The translations under genes and the position numbers were made by a program. A DNA stretch of 43,277 nt from Bacteroidota bacterium (GTDB lineage: Bacteria > Bacteroidota > Ignavibacteria > Ignavibacteriales > Ignavibacteriaceae). Positions 23,293 to 40,163 of the stretch are shown in pieces (the stretch's first letter is position 1; every line of letters begins with the position of its first letter). A model generated the notes under the pieces. That model did no database searches. It was given only the letters and a program-made list of their open reading frames with translations, and was not told where the DNA came from. The DNA is taken from the NCBI GenBank assembly GCA_021815365.1, contig JAKAGZ010000024.1:1-43277 (forward strand), in the 5' to 3' direction.

Positions 23293-24606
23293 TTGGCAGA
23301 ATTAAAGAAAGCTCTCTCCCGTTTTGATCTGATAATGATTGCAATCGGATCAACTATCGGTTCCGGAATTTTCCTGACCCCTGCAATTATTGCTAACTCA
23401 CTTCAGTCACCAGCATATATTTTAATTATCTGGTTAGCCGGCGGACTCCTCATTCTCTGCGGAGCTTTAACCTTTGCGGAACTAGGCGCGTTTATGCCTC
23501 AAGCCGGCGGTGTGTATGTTTTTCTATCCGAAGCTTACGGCAAACCCGCAGGTTTTCTTTACGGATGGGCTTACTTCCTTGTCGTTAACACGGGTGGAAT
23601 TGCCGCTTTGTCTGTTGCGTTTTCAACATATCTTGCATATTTCTTTCCGTTGAGTCCGATTGCTTTAAAACTTACAGCAGTAACCGGGATTTTCATCCTT
23701 ACCGTAATTAATGTACTCGGCGTAAAAATGGGCGGCATCTTCAGCGATCTTTTTACTGTTCTAAAATTAATTGGAATATTTGGAATTATAACAGCAGGGT
23801 TTATCTGGGGAAGCAGCACTGTCACAAATTTTTCTTTTGATACGCATTCCGGTATTACCGGCGGACTTGCTGTTGCAATGGTCGGAGTCTTATGGTCATA
23901 CGGCGGATGGCAGCATGCAACTTACACTGCCGGAGAAGCAAAAGATGCAAAGAAAGATGTTCCTGCTGCAATGATAATCGCAGCTTTGACTGTTACTGCA
24001 ATCTATGTGATTATAAATATTGCTTATATGTTTCTGCTGCCGGTTAACAAGATAGCAAATTCTCCCAGTGTTGCAGCGGACGCTGTAAAAACAGTTCTCG
24101 GTCCAGTTGGCGGAGGAATAATAGCACTAGCAATTTTCATATCAACTTTTGGAACTGCAGGAATTTACACGCTTACAGCGCCAAGAATTTATTTCGCAAT
24201 GGCAAAAGACGGAATATTTTTCCCGCAGATTGCTAAGATTCATCCCAAGTACAGTACACCTCATAACGCAATAATTATCCAATCAGCCTGGGCTGTGATA
24301 CTGATTTTATTCTGGGGTACTTTTGAAAATCTTATTTCTTATGTGGTATTTACGGACTGGATATTTTTTGGTCTGACGGCAGCTAGTGTTTTTATCTTCA
24401 GAAAAAAATTGCCTGAAGCAAAAAGAGACTATAAAACTCTCGGCTACCCTATCACTCCGCTAATTTTTACAGGCGTTGCTGCCTGGTTCGTGATAAACAC
24501 TTTAATCGAAAAACCCGGGCAGGCAATTGCAGGTTTGATTATGCTCGGGCTTGGACTGCCGGTATATTTTTACTGGAAAAATAAAACAAGAAGCCTTGAA
24601 AAATAA
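23293..24606 (+). CDS. APC superfamily amino-acid permease
   Basis: The 437-aa protein has about 12 membrane helices and the APC hallmark in helix 1, IAIGSTIGSGIFLTPAII, whose Gly-rich break binds the amino-acid carboxylate. AGGVYVFLSEAYGKPAGFLY and VGVLWSYGGWQHATYTAGEA (helix 6 region) are typical of the LAT/SteT-like group. It would import or exchange amino acids across the inner membrane. The start is TTG at 23293; AAAAGTAA upstream gives only a weak ribosome site. It is a lone + strand gene, divergent from the Asp-box gene and convergent with the alpha-mannosidase gene, with no obvious link to the glycan loci. Confidence 0.85.
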   Translation: MAELKKALSRFDLIMIAIGSTIGSGIFLTPAIIANSLQSPAYILIIWLAGGLLILCGALTFAELGAFMPQAGGVYVFLSEAYGKPAGFLYGWAYFLVVNTGGIAALSVAFSTYLAYFFPLSPIALKLTAVTGIFILTVINVLGVKMGGIFSDLFTVLKLIGIFGIITAGFIWGSSTVTNFSFDTHSGITGGLAVAMVGVLWSYGGWQHATYTAGEAKDAKKDVPAAMIIAALTVTAIYVIINIAYMFLLPVNKIANSPSVAADAVKTVLGPVGGGIIALAIFISTFGTAGIYTLTAPRIYFAMAKDGIFFPQIAKIHPKYSTPHNAIIIQSAWAVILILFWGTFENLISYVVFTDWIFFGLTAASVFIFRKKLPEAKRDYKTLGYPITPLIFTGVAAWFVINTLIEKPGQAIAGLIMLGLGLPVYFYWKNKTRSLEK

Positions 24607-24646
24607 TAAATGAGACTAAGGATGAACACTGATCCCGATTCCCTCT

Positions 24647-24663
24647 CATAGACGTCAACTTAA
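24647..24663 (+). repeat. Inverted repeat, left arm
   Basis: CATAGACGTCAACTTAA matches the reverse complement of 24967-24983 at 15 of 17 positions. The two arms enclose the multi-hairpin element and could be the ends of a small mobile unit. Confidence 0.5.
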
Positions 24664-24730: not shown

Positions 24731-24898
24731 AAATCCTCTACGAGGATTTGGTGCTTGAAATGGGAATATTTACTACAATAATTTGACCCTGCCTACCGCA
24801 GGCAGGCTCTACGAGGTCAATTACCTAAAACATCGTAGATGTTTAATTATTGTAGAAAAAGTTTTCCACCCATAAAGCTAACATCCTCGTAGAGGATG
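24731..24898. repeat. Symmetric four-hairpin palindromic element (REP/MITE-like)
   Basis: Four short palindromes with three-base loops lie in mirror order: AAATCCTC-TAC-GAGGATTT (24731-24749), TTGACCTC-TAC-GAGGTCAA (24783-24820, interrupted by an insertion), AAACATC-GTA-GATGTTT (24828-24844) and CATCCTC-GTA-GAGGATG (24882-24898). The first two share CCTCTACGAGG; the last has its reverse complement. CTACAATAATT (24773-24783) and AATTATTGTAG (24845-24855) pair across the middle hairpins. The layout is that of a REP-type or miniature element able to fold in DNA or RNA. No transposase lies nearby. Confidence 0.75.
24789..24807. repeat. 19-nt palindrome inserted inside another palindrome
   Basis: Removing these 19 bases restores the perfect palindrome TTGACC/TCTACGAGGTCAA. 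The inserted sequence itself is palindromic (stem CCTGCCT/AGGCAGG with a five-base loop, one base of boundary ambiguity). Its ends are the same as those of the in-frame repeats in the two glycosidase genes. Confidence 0.75.
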
Positions 24899-24966: not shown

Positions 24967-24983
24967 TTAAGTTAACGCCTATG
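24967..24983 (-). repeat. Inverted repeat, right arm
   Basis: Reverse complement CATAGGCGTTAACTTAA pairs with 24647-24663 (15 of 17). Confidence 0.5.
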
Positions 24984-25065
24984 CAATTCCCTCTGGACTG
25001 CATTCATCCCCGCTGGATTTATGAAATCCGCGCCTGCCTGCAATAGTTGTCAGGTTCTATTTTTC

Positions 25066-28000
25066 TTAAAAATATACTTTAATTGTCTCTACTGAATTTT
25101 TCTTTGTTTTAACTTTTACAACTCTTCCATCAAATTTAATTGGTTTCCCATCCACTTCCATAAAATTCGATTGCAAAACTTTTTTCGGAACAGAAGGCAA
25201 GGTTAATGTTGCTTCAGTTTCTCTTCCTTCAGCATCATACCATTGGAAAATCCAAGCATCTGCCTTGCCCTCTTCGCCGCGAGGCGAGCCGGCTAGTCTC
25301 GTCTCCGACTTGTCGGAGCGGGCAAACAGGTGTAAATCTTCAGCTTTTTTAACAGTCGTCAAGACAAGATTCTTTTCATTTAGTTTAATAAAAGAATCAC
25401 TCAATGGTAATTTCCCAGGATGAATAGAATTCATTACAGCAATCAAAGGTTCATTATATTCCCAGCCTCTTCTTACAGTGTTTGCTTCTTTCCAGCTTCC
25501 TGCGTGAGGATAAAGTGCATAATCAATTGAATGCTTGCCCATATCCGCAGTCGGATCGGGCCACTTTGGAGAACGAAGCAATGATAATCGCATTACATTA
25601 CCTTTCGTGTCATAACCATATTTAGAGTTGTTCAGCAAGCTGACTCCGTAATTACCTGCCTTGCCCGCTTCGCTGCGAGGCGAGCCAGCTTGCCTCGTCT
25701 CCGACTTGTCTGAGCGGGCAGACAGGTCAGCCCAGTTTTCTGCAGGAACTTCATACCGCGCTTTCTGCCAGCTTGTTATTCTTTGGGTAGATCGTTCAAT
25801 TGATCCATAAGGAATTTCGTAAGTCGCCACAGTATCGCTGAATGAAAACGGGAAAGCGACTTTTAACATTGTATGCTCTTCCCACCAGTCAGCATCGGTT
25901 TTAAAATCAATTCTGTCAAGCCCGTTGTAAAGAATTACATCCTGCGTAAAGAATGATGAAGGAAAATTCGGAGTGGGGTAATCTTTTACAACTCCCGGTT
26001 TTAAATAATCACGGTACAGCCTTACAACAATTCTGACGGGACCGGATTCAACAACTTCTGCTTTACGGAAATGCGATGGATATTCAACACCCGTTAAACC
26101 AAGATTCCACGCATCCCATTGTTTAGGTTTATCTTCGAGCAATTGCAGCTTATTTCCTTCGCCCTTAAATAATTCCTTCCCGTTTCTTTTGTCAGTAATA
26201 TTTTTCACCCAGCCGGTTGTCGTATCAATTGAGACTGTAAAAAGCTGATTCTCCATTTTAGTTTCAGTAGCAGAAAGAGAAGCATTCGTTAAAGAAGATT
26301 TACCCCTCTTCAACACATAAGTTTTATAACCAATTGATGGAACATCTGAAGCGATGAACATTATCTGATTATGATAGCGATCGCTCTTAACCATTTGCGA
26401 AGGAATTTCTTTTCCGGTTGTTTCACAAACGGAGTAATCATTTTCATCCCCTGCCGGAAGATTAAATTTTACAATATCTGTCCTATCCCAATTTAACGGA
26501 TTGTAAACAGTTATTGGTGATCCGTCTTTTATTTCAGAAGTATTAATATTTCTATCAATTGAGCCAAGCGCGTTAGCAAGAGTGAAGCTGCCGATCTCTT
26601 TAGCCTTTTCATATTTTTCATCGGCATCAATATAATTTTCTCTGATTCCTGAACCGGGAAGTATATCATGAAATTGGTTGAACATAACTTTTTCCCAGGC
26701 ATCTCTCAAATCACTTTGAGGATATTTATTACCAAAGCTTGTTGATATCACAGAAAATTTTTCTGTTTCAGTAAGAAGGTTTTCAAGCTCTCTGTTGTAT
26801 TTTTTTACCTTAGCCTGTGTAGTGTATGTTCCGCGGTGATATTCGAGATAAAGCTCATCATCCCACACAGGAAGTTTGGAGAGGTCCTGTTTCTTCAGCC
26901 AGCCGATATATTTTGCCGCTGTCCCATATTCAATGTTGGGGTAAATAAAAAGAGTTTTGAGGTGCTCAATCCTGTTTAACATATCAATAGAGGGACCGCC
27001 GCCGTGATCACCTACTCCAAACAATATCATAAAATTCCTGAAGCCCGTGTTAGCTTCAAACTGTCTGAGCCAGTCTACTAACTGGTATGACTGCGTGATC
27101 GTATTTACATAATCGAACGGGAAGTATGAAAGGATTTTTGAACCATCGGGAGATTCCCACCAGAAAACCCTGTAAGGAAATACATTCGTATCGTTCCAGC
27201 CAATCTTTTGTGTTATGAAAGCATCAATGCCGGCGTTCTTATAAAACATCGGCATATTCCAGTTGTATCCGAAAGAATCAGGGTTCCAGCCAATCTTTAC
27301 ATCTACTCCCATTTCATCCTGAAAATATTTTTTTGCATACAAAAGCTGCCTCTCCCAGGAAACACCGCTTGGCAGATTGCAATCGGGTTCTATCCACATT
27401 CCACCAACGATCTCCCATCTGCCGTCTTTAATTCTTGCTTTAATTCCTTTAAACACATCAGGAAATTTATCCTGCATCCATTTAAAATATTGTGCGGCAC
27501 TTTGTGTATATGTAAAATCAGGTTTCTCGTCCATTATATGAAGCACAGAAGCAAAAGTATTTCTGCAGATCATTACAGTTTCAAGATCGCGCCAGAGCCA
27601 CGCTGCATCAATGTGAGCATTTGAATCGAAGAAGAGCGTGAATTTTTTTGCAAACTTTGCTACAGGTACGAGTTCTTTCTTTACTTCTTCCACTGACTCT
27701 TTGTAATTTGCAAGATCGCCTTGTTCAAGTGCGTCAACGTTAATCTTTAAAGCTTCCTCCTGAAGCAGTTTATTTAATTTTATTTTTTCATTTTTGTCGA
27801 GTGTAGATTTATCAATTCCCGGATCTGTTCTCACGCGGGCATTTGTCTGATAGGTGTCAAAACTTAAAAGTTTTTGCCCGACTTTCAAACTCAGTGCAAA
27901 ATCCTGAATCTCCTGCCTGAGCGGAGTAACGACTCCCATATCGAGCTCGGCTCTGATTAATCTTAACGGACCACCAGTATTGATCGCTTTAATAACGATA

Positions 28001-28452
28001 ACAAATTTATCTCCCGGCTTTGCATTTTCAGTTAAAACGAAATCGCCGTCCCACGGGAAATATCCTTTGCTCTCTCCGTTGATCCATAAATAACCGTAAT
28101 CATCTACTGAAAGGAGAAGTTTAACTTTTCCGTTCACAGGTGTTCCAAGAATTTGTTTTGGGAGAACAATTGTTTTTCTCAGCCAGCAGGAATCATCCGT
28201 AACGTGTTCATTAAGGCTTAGCGTCCCCCATTTTGAATCGTCAAAATTTATCGAGGTAGGGTCGCCTGCGATTACTGTTCCGCCGGAAAGATTCGGACTT
28301 TTTTTCCAGTCATCATAAGAATAAGTGCTGAGGAAAGTTAACTTCTTGGCAACTTTATCAACATTGGTTTCGTTTTTATTATCACTTTTATTTTGTGAAA
28401 GAATTATGAACGGGAACAAGGAAATGAGCAGAAAGTATTTCAACGATTTCAT
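25066..28452 (-). CDS. Secreted GH38 alpha-mannosidase with two repeat-derived insertions
   Basis: The 1128-aa protein has a signal peptide (1-19, FIILSQ) and a jelly-roll domain (about 60-175, LLLSVDDYGYLWINGE), then the GH38 catalytic barrel with zinc ligands in NAHIDAAWLW (His280, Asp282) and the nucleophile in GWNPDSFGYN (Asp392), plus WIEPDCNLPSG and FGVGDHGGGPS. The C-terminal beta domains include GVSLLNNSKYGYD and AWIFQWYDAEG. It should remove alpha-mannose residues from oligosaccharides outside the cytoplasm. At about residues 909-933 and 1041-1065 two related peptides (both containing ARSDKSETR) interrupt otherwise typical C-domain sequence; each is encoded by a 72-nt palindromic repeat. 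AAAGG precedes the ATG. Convergent with the permease gene; probably part of the minus-strand glycan locus. Confidence 0.9.
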   Translation of the reverse strand: MKSLKYFLLISLFPFIILSQNKSDNKNETNVDKVAKKLTFLSTYSYDDWKKSPNLSGGTVIAGDPTSINFDDSKWGTLSLNEHVTDDSCWLRKTIVLPKQILGTPVNGKVKLLLSVDDYGYLWINGESKGYFPWDGDFVLTENAKPGDKFVIVIKAINTGGPLRLIRAELDMGVVTPLRQEIQDFALSLKVGQKLLSFDTYQTNARVRTDPGIDKSTLDKNEKIKLNKLLQEEALKINVDALEQGDLANYKESVEEVKKELVPVAKFAKKFTLFFDSNAHIDAAWLWRDLETVMICRNTFASVLHIMDEKPDFTYTQSAAQYFKWMQDKFPDVFKGIKARIKDGRWEIVGGMWIEPDCNLPSGVSWERQLLYAKKYFQDEMGVDVKIGWNPDSFGYNWNMPMFYKNAGIDAFITQKIGWNDTNVFPYRVFWWESPDGSKILSYFPFDYVNTITQSYQLVDWLRQFEANTGFRNFMILFGVGDHGGGPSIDMLNRIEHLKTLFIYPNIEYGTAAKYIGWLKKQDLSKLPVWDDELYLEYHRGTYTTQAKVKKYNRELENLLTETEKFSVISTSFGNKYPQSDLRDAWEKVMFNQFHDILPGSGIRENYIDADEKYEKAKEIGSFTLANALGSIDRNINTSEIKDGSPITVYNPLNWDRTDIVKFNLPAGDENDYSVCETTGKEIPSQMVKSDRYHNQIMFIASDVPSIGYKTYVLKRGKSSLTNASLSATETKMENQLFTVSIDTTTGWVKNITDKRNGKELFKGEGNKLQLLEDKPKQWDAWNLGLTGVEYPSHFRKAEVVESGPVRIVVRLYRDYLKPGVVKDYPTPNFPSSFFTQDVILYNGLDRIDFKTDADWWEEHTMLKVAFPFSFSDTVATYEIPYGSIERSTQRITSWQKARYEVPAENWADLSARSDKSETRQAGSPRSEAGKAGNYGVSLLNNSKYGYDTKGNVMRLSLLRSPKWPDPTADMGKHSIDYALYPHAGSWKEANTVRRGWEYNEPLIAVMNSIHPGKLPLSDSFIKLNEKNLVLTTVKKAEDLHLFARSDKSETRLAGSPRGEEGKADAWIFQWYDAEGRETEATLTLPSVPKKVLQSNFMEVDGKPIKFDGRVVKVKTKKNSVETIKVYF
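25260..25331 (-). repeat. In-frame 72-nt palindromic repeat, copy A
   Basis: Exactly 24 codons inside the alpha-mannosidase gene, encoding a peptide with ARSDKSETRLAGSPRG. It matches copy B (25656-25727) at 65 of 72 positions. Ends are inverted repeats (CTGCCTTGCCC / GGGCAAACAGG), with an internal perfect hairpin CTCCGAC-TT-GTCGGAG and a weaker GAGGCGAGCC/GGCTAGTCTC-type stem. It lies between VKKAED and DAWIFQW, a run that looks continuous without it. Confidence 0.85.
25656..25727 (-). repeat. In-frame 72-nt palindromic repeat, copy B
   Basis: Second copy in the same gene, same orientation and reading frame, encoding ARSDKSETRQAGSPRS and neighbours. It lies between NWADL and NYGVSLLN. Terminal arms ACCTGCCTTGCCCGCT and AGCGGGCAGACAGGT pair with a few mismatches; an inner CGAGGC/GCCTCG stem is perfect. 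Confidence 0.85.
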
Positions 28453-38012: not shown

Positions 38013-40163
38013 TCATGGCTCAGGCAATATTTTATCATAATCAATCAGCATCTTTGCGATAATCCCCGCCCAGATGTAGGTTTTGTTCCATCCAGCCTGC
38101 AGATCATCCGAGCTGTAAAATTCCCAGAACCAGTGGTTTGTTCTTAACTGGTAATCTACATTTTTTAAAACTTTTTTCACTAATTCTTTTGCTTCTTTTT
38201 TATAGCCGTAGTCAATCAGTCCGCGGAAAACCAGATACTGCCATTGTGTCCACACAGGTCCGTTCCAGTAACCGATCGGATTGTAATAACTGTCATCGGC
38301 TGAAAGAGACGGAACACCGAACCTTCGCCAGAATTCTTTTTTGTTTGTTAAATGTTTTATCAATTCCTTTGCCTGATCCTTATTTGCGACTCCCGCCCAC
38401 AACGCAAGAAATGCAATTATTTCTTTTCTCTTTAAATCATTTTTCTTTTTGAAAGTGAAAGAATGGTTGTCTTTATTAATGTTATAATAAAATTTCGTTT
38501 CGGGATCCCACATATATTTATTTATCAGAGCAGTTCTTTTTTCATAATTTTTTTTGAACGATTTTGCTTCATCCGTCAGACCGAGTTCATTCGCCATCTT
38601 TTCGAGAGATTTTGCTTCCTTAACCAGCATTAAATTTAAATCAACAGCATCGAAGTTCGATGGGTCGCCGACTTTATCCCAGACAGCTACAAGCCCGTCG
38701 CGCACACACTCAAGCACCCCGTTCCCTCCCCATTCACAAAGTCCATCATTATTTGAATCCCGGTTCTTCATAAAATACTCAAATAATTTTCTACCTGATT
38801 TGTACGCATCTTCCAGAAATTTTTTACCTGCCTGTCCAGCCCGCTCCGCCGATGCAGAAGTGAGGCGAGCAGGCAGGTCTTTCGTCAATTTATAAATTTC
38901 CCAATTCTCCCAGTTAAACCATGGAGCTGAAGTTGTGAGCTGACCATTTTCGGGAATCGTTTCATTCAGGTAGGGACCTGTCCGGTAATTTATGTAGCCA
39001 TCAGGATGCTGTCTTTCCATAAAAACTCTCTGAGAGTTCATTGCACCCTGCGGATCCATATAAACATAAGCAAGCATTGAGAGACTTTCGTGAAAAACCT
39101 GTCCGCCGTATCCCCATCCCCATCGTGGCTCGCGTGAAAAAACATAATAATTGTAGCTGCATTTGCCTTCCGGCGGCAGCATACATTGCCGCAGCAGTGA
39201 AAAAGCATTCCAGTAAAGAGCGTTGTAACCTTTTTCTTTAAAGTCTATACGAGGAATTTGGCTGTAGCCCTCTTCATCTTCCCTTACAAATTCTTCTGAA
39301 TTTTTGGTCATTAGTAACTGGCAATTGGTAATTAGTGAGGTTAAATCTTTTTCAGCTTCGTTGATTCCCCTTATAATTTTTAATGTTACTGAACTGCCTG
39401 CGGGAACAGATAAACTCTTTTGAAGAGAAATTATTTTTGCATATCTGTAATCAGCAGGATTTTTCAGGCTATCATTTTTAAGATCGTTAAGAAAAACTTT
39501 GTCGGAAGTATCTTTCACAGAATTAAAAAAATTATATGCACCGTGTCCGTCAGGTTTAAGGTTCATCAATAAAACATCCGTAATATCTTCCTGGAAAGGA
39601 ATATTGTGATCTTTCATCCACCTGTCAGGAAATTCTTTGTGATTAAATTGCATACCGTCATCAAGTGTTCTTAAATCAGAAAAGCTCTCGTTGATATTCT
39701 GAATGAAAGGATAAACGTTGACATCTAGTTCAAAAGGAGATTCATTTATTATTTTCATTTCACTAACAGCAATGCGCGAGCTGTAAACCAAAAAAGTATT
39801 TTCGATTTTTAAATCCTTAAAGGGGTAATAATAAAATTTAACAAGATCACTGTATGAAGCTGTTATGACCGGTCGTTTATAGAATTGAGAAAGTTTGTAT
39901 TTGATAATCCCGTTTAATTTAAATGCAGTCCCGAGTTCTCCAGCCTGAGCCGATCTAAAGCACATCCCTTTTTCAGGATCGTACCAGACGAACTGGTAAC
40001 CTTCGTTTACTTTATATTCTGATCTGTTCAGTGCGGCGGCGTACGTAGTGTAAATAGGATCGTTTTGTGTTACATTAAGATTGGAGAGATAATTTTGTGA
40101 AAAAGAATTGAAGAAAATAATTAAAACTAAAATTGCTGTACGATTTATACTTTTAAAATGCAT
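38013..40163 (-). CDS. Secreted GH63-like (alpha/alpha)6 glycosidase
   Basis: The 716-aa protein has a signal peptide (about 1-22, FFNSFSQ), an N-terminal beta-sandwich domain (residues 30-270), and an (alpha/alpha)6 barrel of the GH63/mannosylglycerate hydrolase-like clan: EPRWGWGYGGQVFHESLSML, KNRDSNNDGLCEWGG, DAVDLNLMLVKEAKSL, PIGYWNGPVWTQWQYLVFRG (the family hallmark) and WEFYSSDDLQAGWN. It likely trims glucose- or mannose-linked oligosaccharides outside the cytoplasm. A 51-nt palindromic repeat encodes residues about 429-446. Its last 90 codons are copied twice downstream. It begins 13 bases after the 1032-aa glycosidase stop, so the two are in one operon. Confidence 0.83.
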   Translation of the reverse strand: MHFKSINRTAILVLIIFFNSFSQNYLSNLNVTQNDPIYTTYAAALNRSEYKVNEGYQFVWYDPEKGMCFRSAQAGELGTAFKLNGIIKYKLSQFYKRPVITASYSDLVKFYYYPFKDLKIENTFLVYSSRIAVSEMKIINESPFELDVNVYPFIQNINESFSDLRTLDDGMQFNHKEFPDRWMKDHNIPFQEDITDVLLMNLKPDGHGAYNFFNSVKDTSDKVFLNDLKNDSLKNPADYRYAKIISLQKSLSVPAGSSVTLKIIRGINEAEKDLTSLITNCQLLMTKNSEEFVREDEEGYSQIPRIDFKEKGYNALYWNAFSLLRQCMLPPEGKCSYNYYVFSREPRWGWGYGGQVFHESLSMLAYVYMDPQGAMNSQRVFMERQHPDGYINYRTGPYLNETIPENGQLTTSAPWFNWENWEIYKLTKDLPARLTSASAERAGQAGKKFLEDAYKSGRKLFEYFMKNRDSNNDGLCEWGGNGVLECVRDGLVAVWDKVGDPSNFDAVDLNLMLVKEAKSLEKMANELGLTDEAKSFKKNYEKRTALINKYMWDPETKFYYNINKDNHSFTFKKKNDLKRKEIIAFLALWAGVANKDQAKELIKHLTNKKEFWRRFGVPSLSADDSYYNPIGYWNGPVWTQWQYLVFRGLIDYGYKKEAKELVKKVLKNVDYQLRTNHWFWEFYSSDDLQAGWNKTYIWAGIIAKMLIDYDKILPEP
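38828..38878 (-). repeat. In-frame 51-nt palindromic repeat, copy C
   Basis: Exactly 17 codons inside the GH63-like gene, giving LPARLTSASAERAGQAG between YKLTKD and KKFLEDAYK. Outer arms ACCTGCCTG (38826) and CAGGCAGGT (ending 38878) are perfect inverted repeats; an inner CGCC/GGCG stem follows. The ends and frame (D-L-x-A-R start, A-G end) match copies A and B in the alpha-mannosidase gene, while the middle differs. Confidence 0.8.

Follow-up and report, generated by a model that had tools for sequence, protein, structure and literature searches.

The 19-nt palindrome nested at positions 24783-24820 of the window (the whole 43,277-nt stretch of DNA analysed) is very probably an insertion, and it lies at a point where other palindromes of its kind are found in several genera. 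Its host is a repeated unit of four hairpins, A-B-C-D, and in three of these (A, B and D) different CCTGCC palindromes occupy one and the same junction, GTAGAG^(CCTGCC...)^G, always on the same strand. When the copies are compared, this junction looks like a preferred landing site, and it is probably a recurrent hot spot. Copies of the host unit also stand on either side of a Y1 (HUH) transposase gene with the signature of subclass 1.2. Nested palindromes are already known; what is new here is the fixed junction and the identity of the host.

The nested palindrome and its host unit

The nested site is intergenic, between ORF 23293-24606 (+) and ORF 25066-28452 (-), and reads TTGAC-CCTGCCTACCGCAGGCAGG-CTCTACGAGGTCAA. 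As an initial sequence-only reading of this DNA had proposed, removal of 24788-24806 restores a palindrome with a TAC loop, TTGACCTC-TAC-GAGGTCAA, which is 19 nt long with 8-bp arms and a 3-nt loop; the neighbouring palindrome of the same type to which that reading pointed is AATCCTC-TAC-GAGGATT at 24732-24748. The removed 19-mer (plus strand) is itself palindromic, with the CCTGCCT/AGGCAGG ends already remarked upon pairing as 7-bp arms around ACCGC. The exact 19-mer occurs once in the window, with 0 occurrences expected from shuffled sequences, and forms a separate branch in the predicted DNA fold of the host unit. Because C24787 and C24807 are identical, the junction is ambiguous by 1 nt and the insert may equally be placed at 24789-24807, so that a 19-nt insert without target duplication and an 18-nt insert with a 1-nt duplication both fit; the early statement that no duplication is visible corresponds to the former. 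An Rfam search of the window matched 0 families.

The host of the 19-mer is hairpin B, and all parts of the unit lie on the plus strand. Hairpin A (24732-24748) is recognized from its sequence, the alignment of copies and paired changes, and is followed by the 5' half of an outer stem, CTACAATAA (24773-24781; alignment, pairing and predicted fold). The interrupted hairpin B (24783-24820; sequence, alignment and pairing) has one arm split into 24783-24787 and 24807-24809, a loop at 24810-24812 and the other arm at 24813-24820. Hairpin C, AACATC-GTA-GATGTT (24829-24843), and the 3' half of the outer stem, TTATTGTAG (24847-24855), are defined by alignment and paired changes, and hairpin D, ATCCTC-GTA-GAGGAT (24883-24897), by the alignment of copies from the same genome. 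The outer stem encloses hairpins B and C, and the core CCTCTACGAGG is common to hairpins A, B and D. In 20 sequences from the window's genome and its relatives the host structure was paired in 95.9% of cells, and two-sided changes affected 6 pairs (12 cells) vs 0-2 pairs (0-3 cells) when the partners were slid, counts that are inflated by related copies.

The window's A-D unit sits within a 339-bp unit bearing 18-bp terminal inverted repeats, at 24646-24663 (+) and 24967-24984 (-), which were delimited by comparison of units. Such repeats are a trait of MITEs, and paired ends also occur on contigs C71, C108, C63, C82 and C101 of the same genome; in the flanking sequence, no target duplication is visible beside the ends. 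At C63:2406-2744 and C101:7068-7420 the same terminal inverted repeats enclose other hairpin arrays, as if units with these ends often took up hairpin repeats.

Searches of the window's genome gave 26 host matches with the surrounding 160 bp as query and 23 with a second query, and 18 copies were aligned. Site 1, in hairpin B, is occupied in 7 copies and empty in 11. Site 2, in the 3' half of the outer stem, holds the 20-nt palindrome CCTGTCTGCCGACAGGCAGG in 6 of the 18, and site 3, in hairpin D, holds the 34-nt CCTGCCTGCGCGAAGCCGCTTCGGCATAGGCAGG in 4, which, read by eye, looks like a CCTGCC palindrome holding another palindrome; both sites are empty in the window. When read on the same strand, sites 1 and 3 have the identical junction GTAGAG^G. 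All six copies of the window's subfamily in this genome are occupied at site 1. The intact hairpin, ACCTCTACGAGGT, is present at 6 places in the genome, and a copy from another genus with outer ends as in the window (L225, genome G027) is also empty, reading CGACCTCTACGAGGTC. The sequence-only reading had held that the 19-mer was inserted and that its presence in every related copy would speak for an intrinsic part; since 11 of the 18 copies in the genome lack it, and empty copies exist in other genera, it is to be regarded as a presence/absence insertion. Gain and precise loss of the 19-mer are not always distinguishable.

The GTAGAG^G junction and the CCTGCC family

Copies and genera were compared with one genome per species. 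The host unit was matched in 21 of the 59 genomes searched, the window's own included, and 40 stretches were read. In genome G003 the unit is bordered on the left and right by several different sequences, and its ends lie immediately beyond hairpins A and D, which is the behaviour expected of a mobile unit. Site 1 is empty in those G003 copies read that have hairpin B in full. Most copies in G014 carry CCTGCCTTGCCGTCAGGCAGG at site 1, G030 has a longer nested palindrome there (L259), and in G120, which belongs to another family, site 1 holds CCTGCCTGCCGGCAGGCAGG in the copies read. A palindrome was found in hairpin A (L255) and another in the outer stem (L254) of G008, and one in hairpin D of G033 (L260). 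Empty hairpins keep their arms complementary through paired changes (GACC/GGTC, AACC/GGTT).

Other departures from the intact unit were also seen. In G027, an unrelated second palindrome family (TCCGAAGGATGC...GCA type) occupies the loop of hairpin B (L226, L227 and L229); in G003, hairpin A runs into hairpin B at the core that they share, and the intervening stretch is lost (L242, L248 and L251); and at G051:C11:82807-87237 (partly L264) many host-unit matches are clustered in about 4.4 kb.

The junction was searched for with TCGTAGAGN{0,6}CCTGCC in 164 genomes of the order. Spacing 0 gave 24 places in 6 genomes (7 in the window's genome, 9 in G120, 5 in G014 and 1 each in G003, G008 and G030), the other spacings gave 7 places in 6 genomes, and the reversed control gave 7 matches. 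All but one of the 24 places are host units, from 5 genomes, the G003 place (L266) lying outside any host unit; four of the nine G120 places were read. The inserts at the junction differ between hairpins B and D of the window's genome, hairpin B of G014, G030 and G120, hairpin A of G008 and hairpin D of G033. Their polarity is constant, with the CCTGCC leading end on the GTAGAG side and a variable far end, and in each of hairpins A, B and D a distance of 2-3 nt separates the junction from the loop. The probability of such recurrence is 2.6e-6 with hairpin B counted once and 1.7e-9 otherwise, values that serve as a rough guide, being based on a uniform junction over about 180 positions and on events counted by eye.

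In a tree built from 49 host rows, 20 of them occupied and 29 empty, the pattern at site 1 requires 6 changes, of which at least 4 are forced by supported branches. The other 13 of the 62 rows had no clean hairpin B (other-family loop inserts, A/B fusions and truncations) and were left out, among them C71a2r, which is empty by alignment. In this tree the empty L225 is nested within the window's occupied clade (100/93), so that, besides gain, loss or exchange of the insert is possible in some copies. Of the earlier view that the nesting is a snapshot of transposition order, the insertion therefore stands, and the order is blurred by such possible loss or exchange.

The 19-mer belongs to a dispersed family of tiny CCTGCC...GGCAGG palindromes. 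The pattern CTGCCTN{2,8}AGGCAG matches 32 places in the window's genome (control 0); chance may account for a few of them, whose middles are simple and A/T-rich. CCTGCCTGN{2,5}CAGGCAGG occurs at 1 to 19 places per genome in 8 of 31 genomes (controls 0). The exact 19-mer also occurs in an unrelated repeat (C10) and at C94. Two other repeats of the genome that hold CCTGCC palindromes yield no empty sites because each has 3 copies, all occupied.

Several general properties were considered for this family and either rejected or found weak. Identity with GTAG-tagged REPs was one: GTAG precedes 12 of the 13 unique host-junction sites, where it is supplied by the host, and a general tag (GTAG or GTGG 0-2 nt 5' of the hairpin) occurs at 1 of 69 sites outside the host vs a random mean of 1.18. 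A cognate tyrosine transposase flanked by copies was likewise sought, and CCTGCC palindromes flank none of the four Y1 genes of the genome; the suggestion that the 19-mer is a minimal form of a mobile element is therefore retained as regards its membership of a dispersed family and weakened as regards an enzyme of its own. Among 80 related Y1 loci, a CCTGCC palindrome is present in 2 only, more than 1.5 kb from the gene. A few CCTGCC palindromes in hairpin loops and tRNA fragments prompted a test of loop targeting, in which a stem of at least 5 spanned 13 of 82 unique sites vs 11.1 for random positions and 8.3 for swapped flanks. An AG target as a general property is weak (12 of 112 flanks vs a 5.3% background); AA is the more frequent flank (37 of 112 vs 12.3%), and this leaning makes a poor fit to the host junction.

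Some further occurrences of these palindromes deserve mention in their own right. The repeat AATAAGTCACCGTATT^palindrome^ATGAATCAGAGCA (C80:58869, C56:68402 and C71:14417 of the window's genome) holds a CCTGCC palindrome in the 3 copies seen. At 38827-38877 of the window, a 51-bp nested palindrome, CCTGCCTG...GAGGCGAGCAGGCAGG, lies within ORF 38013-40163 (-). A literature search for the peptide LPAGRQAG, which we take to be a reading of CCTGCC-type repeats, found no paper. CCTGCC palindromes are also found inside displaced tRNA fragments (D-loop of Leu or Pro type, T-loop) in four cases, L081 2075 (C93:18274 of the window's genome), L308/L329 (G003:C93:312), L337 1134 (G014:C115:3133) and L325 509 (G018:C1:120508), the last repeated 5 times, 450 bp apart. 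The same stretch holds an intact tRNA gene (ARAGORN) in all four, and in three a small GIY-YIG nuclease gene lies next, within about 80 bp. Small GIY-YIG genes form tandem arrays of 3-5 copies at 300-450 bp spacing (G001:C1:2945594-2947066 and 712542-713374; G018:C1:120132-122135, 854791-855669, 1911908-1912826 and 2076525-2077349), some of which adjoin tRNA fragments; these arrays look like a repeating tRNA-targeting nuclease element.

Y1 transposase genes beside the host unit

The Y1 transposase that the sequence-only reading had advised looking for does have a counterpart in the genome, where a Y1 gene is flanked by the outer (host) repeat. On contig C71, a gene for a 154-aa Y1 transposase (L087 2985-3449, minus strand; Pfam Y1_Tnp, E 1.5e-27) has host-unit copies on either side. 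Its motifs are DHIH, WQ and YISNQEIHH, and those of the gene on C38 are DHVH, WQ and YIFNQKEHH. The signature of TnpA-Y1 subclass 1.2 (DH[IV]H, WQ, Y---Q--HH) is present in 77 of 80 related loci and in both of these genes, and the C71 product is also close to the length of about 148 aa that goes with this subclass. The named relatives span several phyla, as judged from the record titles of 68 of the 80 loci.

A GC hairpin lies within 150 bp on both sides of the gene at 53 of 78 Y1 loci vs 2.0 expected from random stand-ins, and the stem core is shared at 33 of 78 vs 0.5 expected; the remaining 2 of the 80 loci lack 150 bp on one side. At many of the 18 named loci listed, the Y1 gene is preceded by a C/D-like hairpin pair and followed by an A/B-like one, an arrangement that is not universal, as L127 has none downstream. 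In distant organisms among these loci (L115, L116, L117, L118 and L120), the units beside Y1 genes contain intact, empty B-like hairpins.

In the accessible part of the published survey, subclass 1.2 is listed without REPs and generally without terminal secondary structures (PMC6006769). The host-flanked Y1 genes share its signature and differ from that description by the hairpins found on both sides at most of the loci counted (PMC6006769), which we read as a correction of the description of the subclass and not as exclusion from it. Subclass 1.2 Y1 proteins would thereby gain candidate cognate hairpins that are absent from the survey. No later paper on the subclass was found in the literature searched, most subscription journals being outside its scope.

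Origin of the inserts and known systems

The best overall explanation, which we hold with evenly balanced confidence, is the recurrent insertion of small hairpins at GTAGAG^G, which would be a preferred break or joining point of the Y1-flanking host hairpins. The single-stranded host hairpin would be nicked, most likely by the Y1 enzyme of the host unit, an attribution that we offer tentatively, or else by a hairpin nuclease. A small hairpin would then be joined at the break, duplicating no more than 1 nt, and its precise exit would be possible. Its folding as a separate branch of the host hairpin may explain why the insert is tolerated. In their polarity the inserts recall the IS200/IS605 family, which is described, in the material available to us, as inserting into single strands next to a short target on the left. 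Against this explanation stand the palindromes outside the host, which have no GTRG tag, no excess of flanking hairpins and AA-leaning flanks, together with the lack of CCTGCC palindromes beside the four Y1 genes of the genome and their rare and distant occurrence at the related loci. A bolder version, according to which subclass 1.2 Y1 enzymes own the four-hairpin unit and cut it at GTAGAG^G, and foreign mini-hairpins of about 19 nt are pasted in, each forming a GTAG-AG-hairpin that is formally a REP, seems improbable; if true, the capture of other palindromes at a programmed position would be a source of diversity among REP-like repeats.

Some site-1 cases may descend from a single old insertion. 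Extended to all cases, this would mean that one hairpin-B insertion multiplied as the host unit was amplified and was passed on, through recombination or gene conversion, among copies and among the similar hairpins A, B and D, the empty copies never having been invaded or having been converted back, with no recurrent targeting. Such a history is possible but rather doubtful. It would accommodate the full occupancy of the window's subfamily, the nesting of L225 in its clade, the core shared by hairpins A, B and D and the A/B fusions at that core, but the inserts found at this junction vary in both sequence and length, an insert passing from B to D or A would, as read from the sequences, be flanked by homology of 10 nt on one side and of about 1 nt on the other, and the tree needs its several changes at site 1, most of them forced.

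It is unlikely that the inserts arose by structure-driven copying errors, in which a hairpin-stalled fork or a hairpin nuclease (for example, SbcCD) breaks the host hairpin near its loop and template-switch repair copies a nearby palindrome, no transposase being involved. The closeness of the junction to the loop in three hairpins and the other palindrome family in the hairpin B loop of G027 agree with this mechanism, but the junction is constant to the base and strand across genera, the insert always begins with CCTGCC on the GTAGAG side and the 82 unique sites show no general loop preference. That the 19-mer belonged to hairpin B from the start, with the empty copies arising by precise deletion, has very little probability, for although loss of the stretch between the repeated C residues would make the palindrome whole again and L225 lies among occupied copies, most copies in the genome are empty, the empty arms carry paired changes, Y1-adjacent units of distant organisms have intact empty B-like hairpins and the same kind of insert is found at other sites of the host unit.

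The means by which palindromes of about 20 nt spread in bacteria and organelles have long been in question. At GTAGAG^G, a single short junction, different palindromes are found in several genera, within repeats lying on either side of a small enzyme gene, so that cutting and joining there are open to direct test. The literature searched contained neither the fixed GTAGAG^G junction nor hairpin units for subclass 1.2 Y1 genes.

SDR5, reportedly described by Elhai in 2008, is said to be a "very small mobile repeated element" of cyanobacteria. It has been found inside HIP1, and differs from the present case, as far as the available part of the source goes, in sequence and organisms and in its host, which is an 8-nt palindrome there and a four-hairpin Y1-flanking unit here (PMC4390886). 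The short palindromes of Volvox organelles are often nested in one another, as here, but they are organellar, AT-rich in the mitochondrion and have TAAA/TTTA loops, and a fixed junction is not described in the accessible portion of that report (PMC2670323). The yeast mitochondrial GC cluster GC42, as presented in the text at hand, is also a GC-rich mobile palindrome with a short AG target and no known enzyme, but it is mitochondrial and 42 nt long, whereas here, outside the host, AG flanks show only a weak excess (PMC4478555). Finally, REPs within palindromes provide a palindrome-in-palindrome arrangement in bacterial genomes; in the part of the source consulted those inserts are GTAG- or CGTC-tagged, whereas the CCTGCC palindromes are untagged outside the host junction (PMC3733652).
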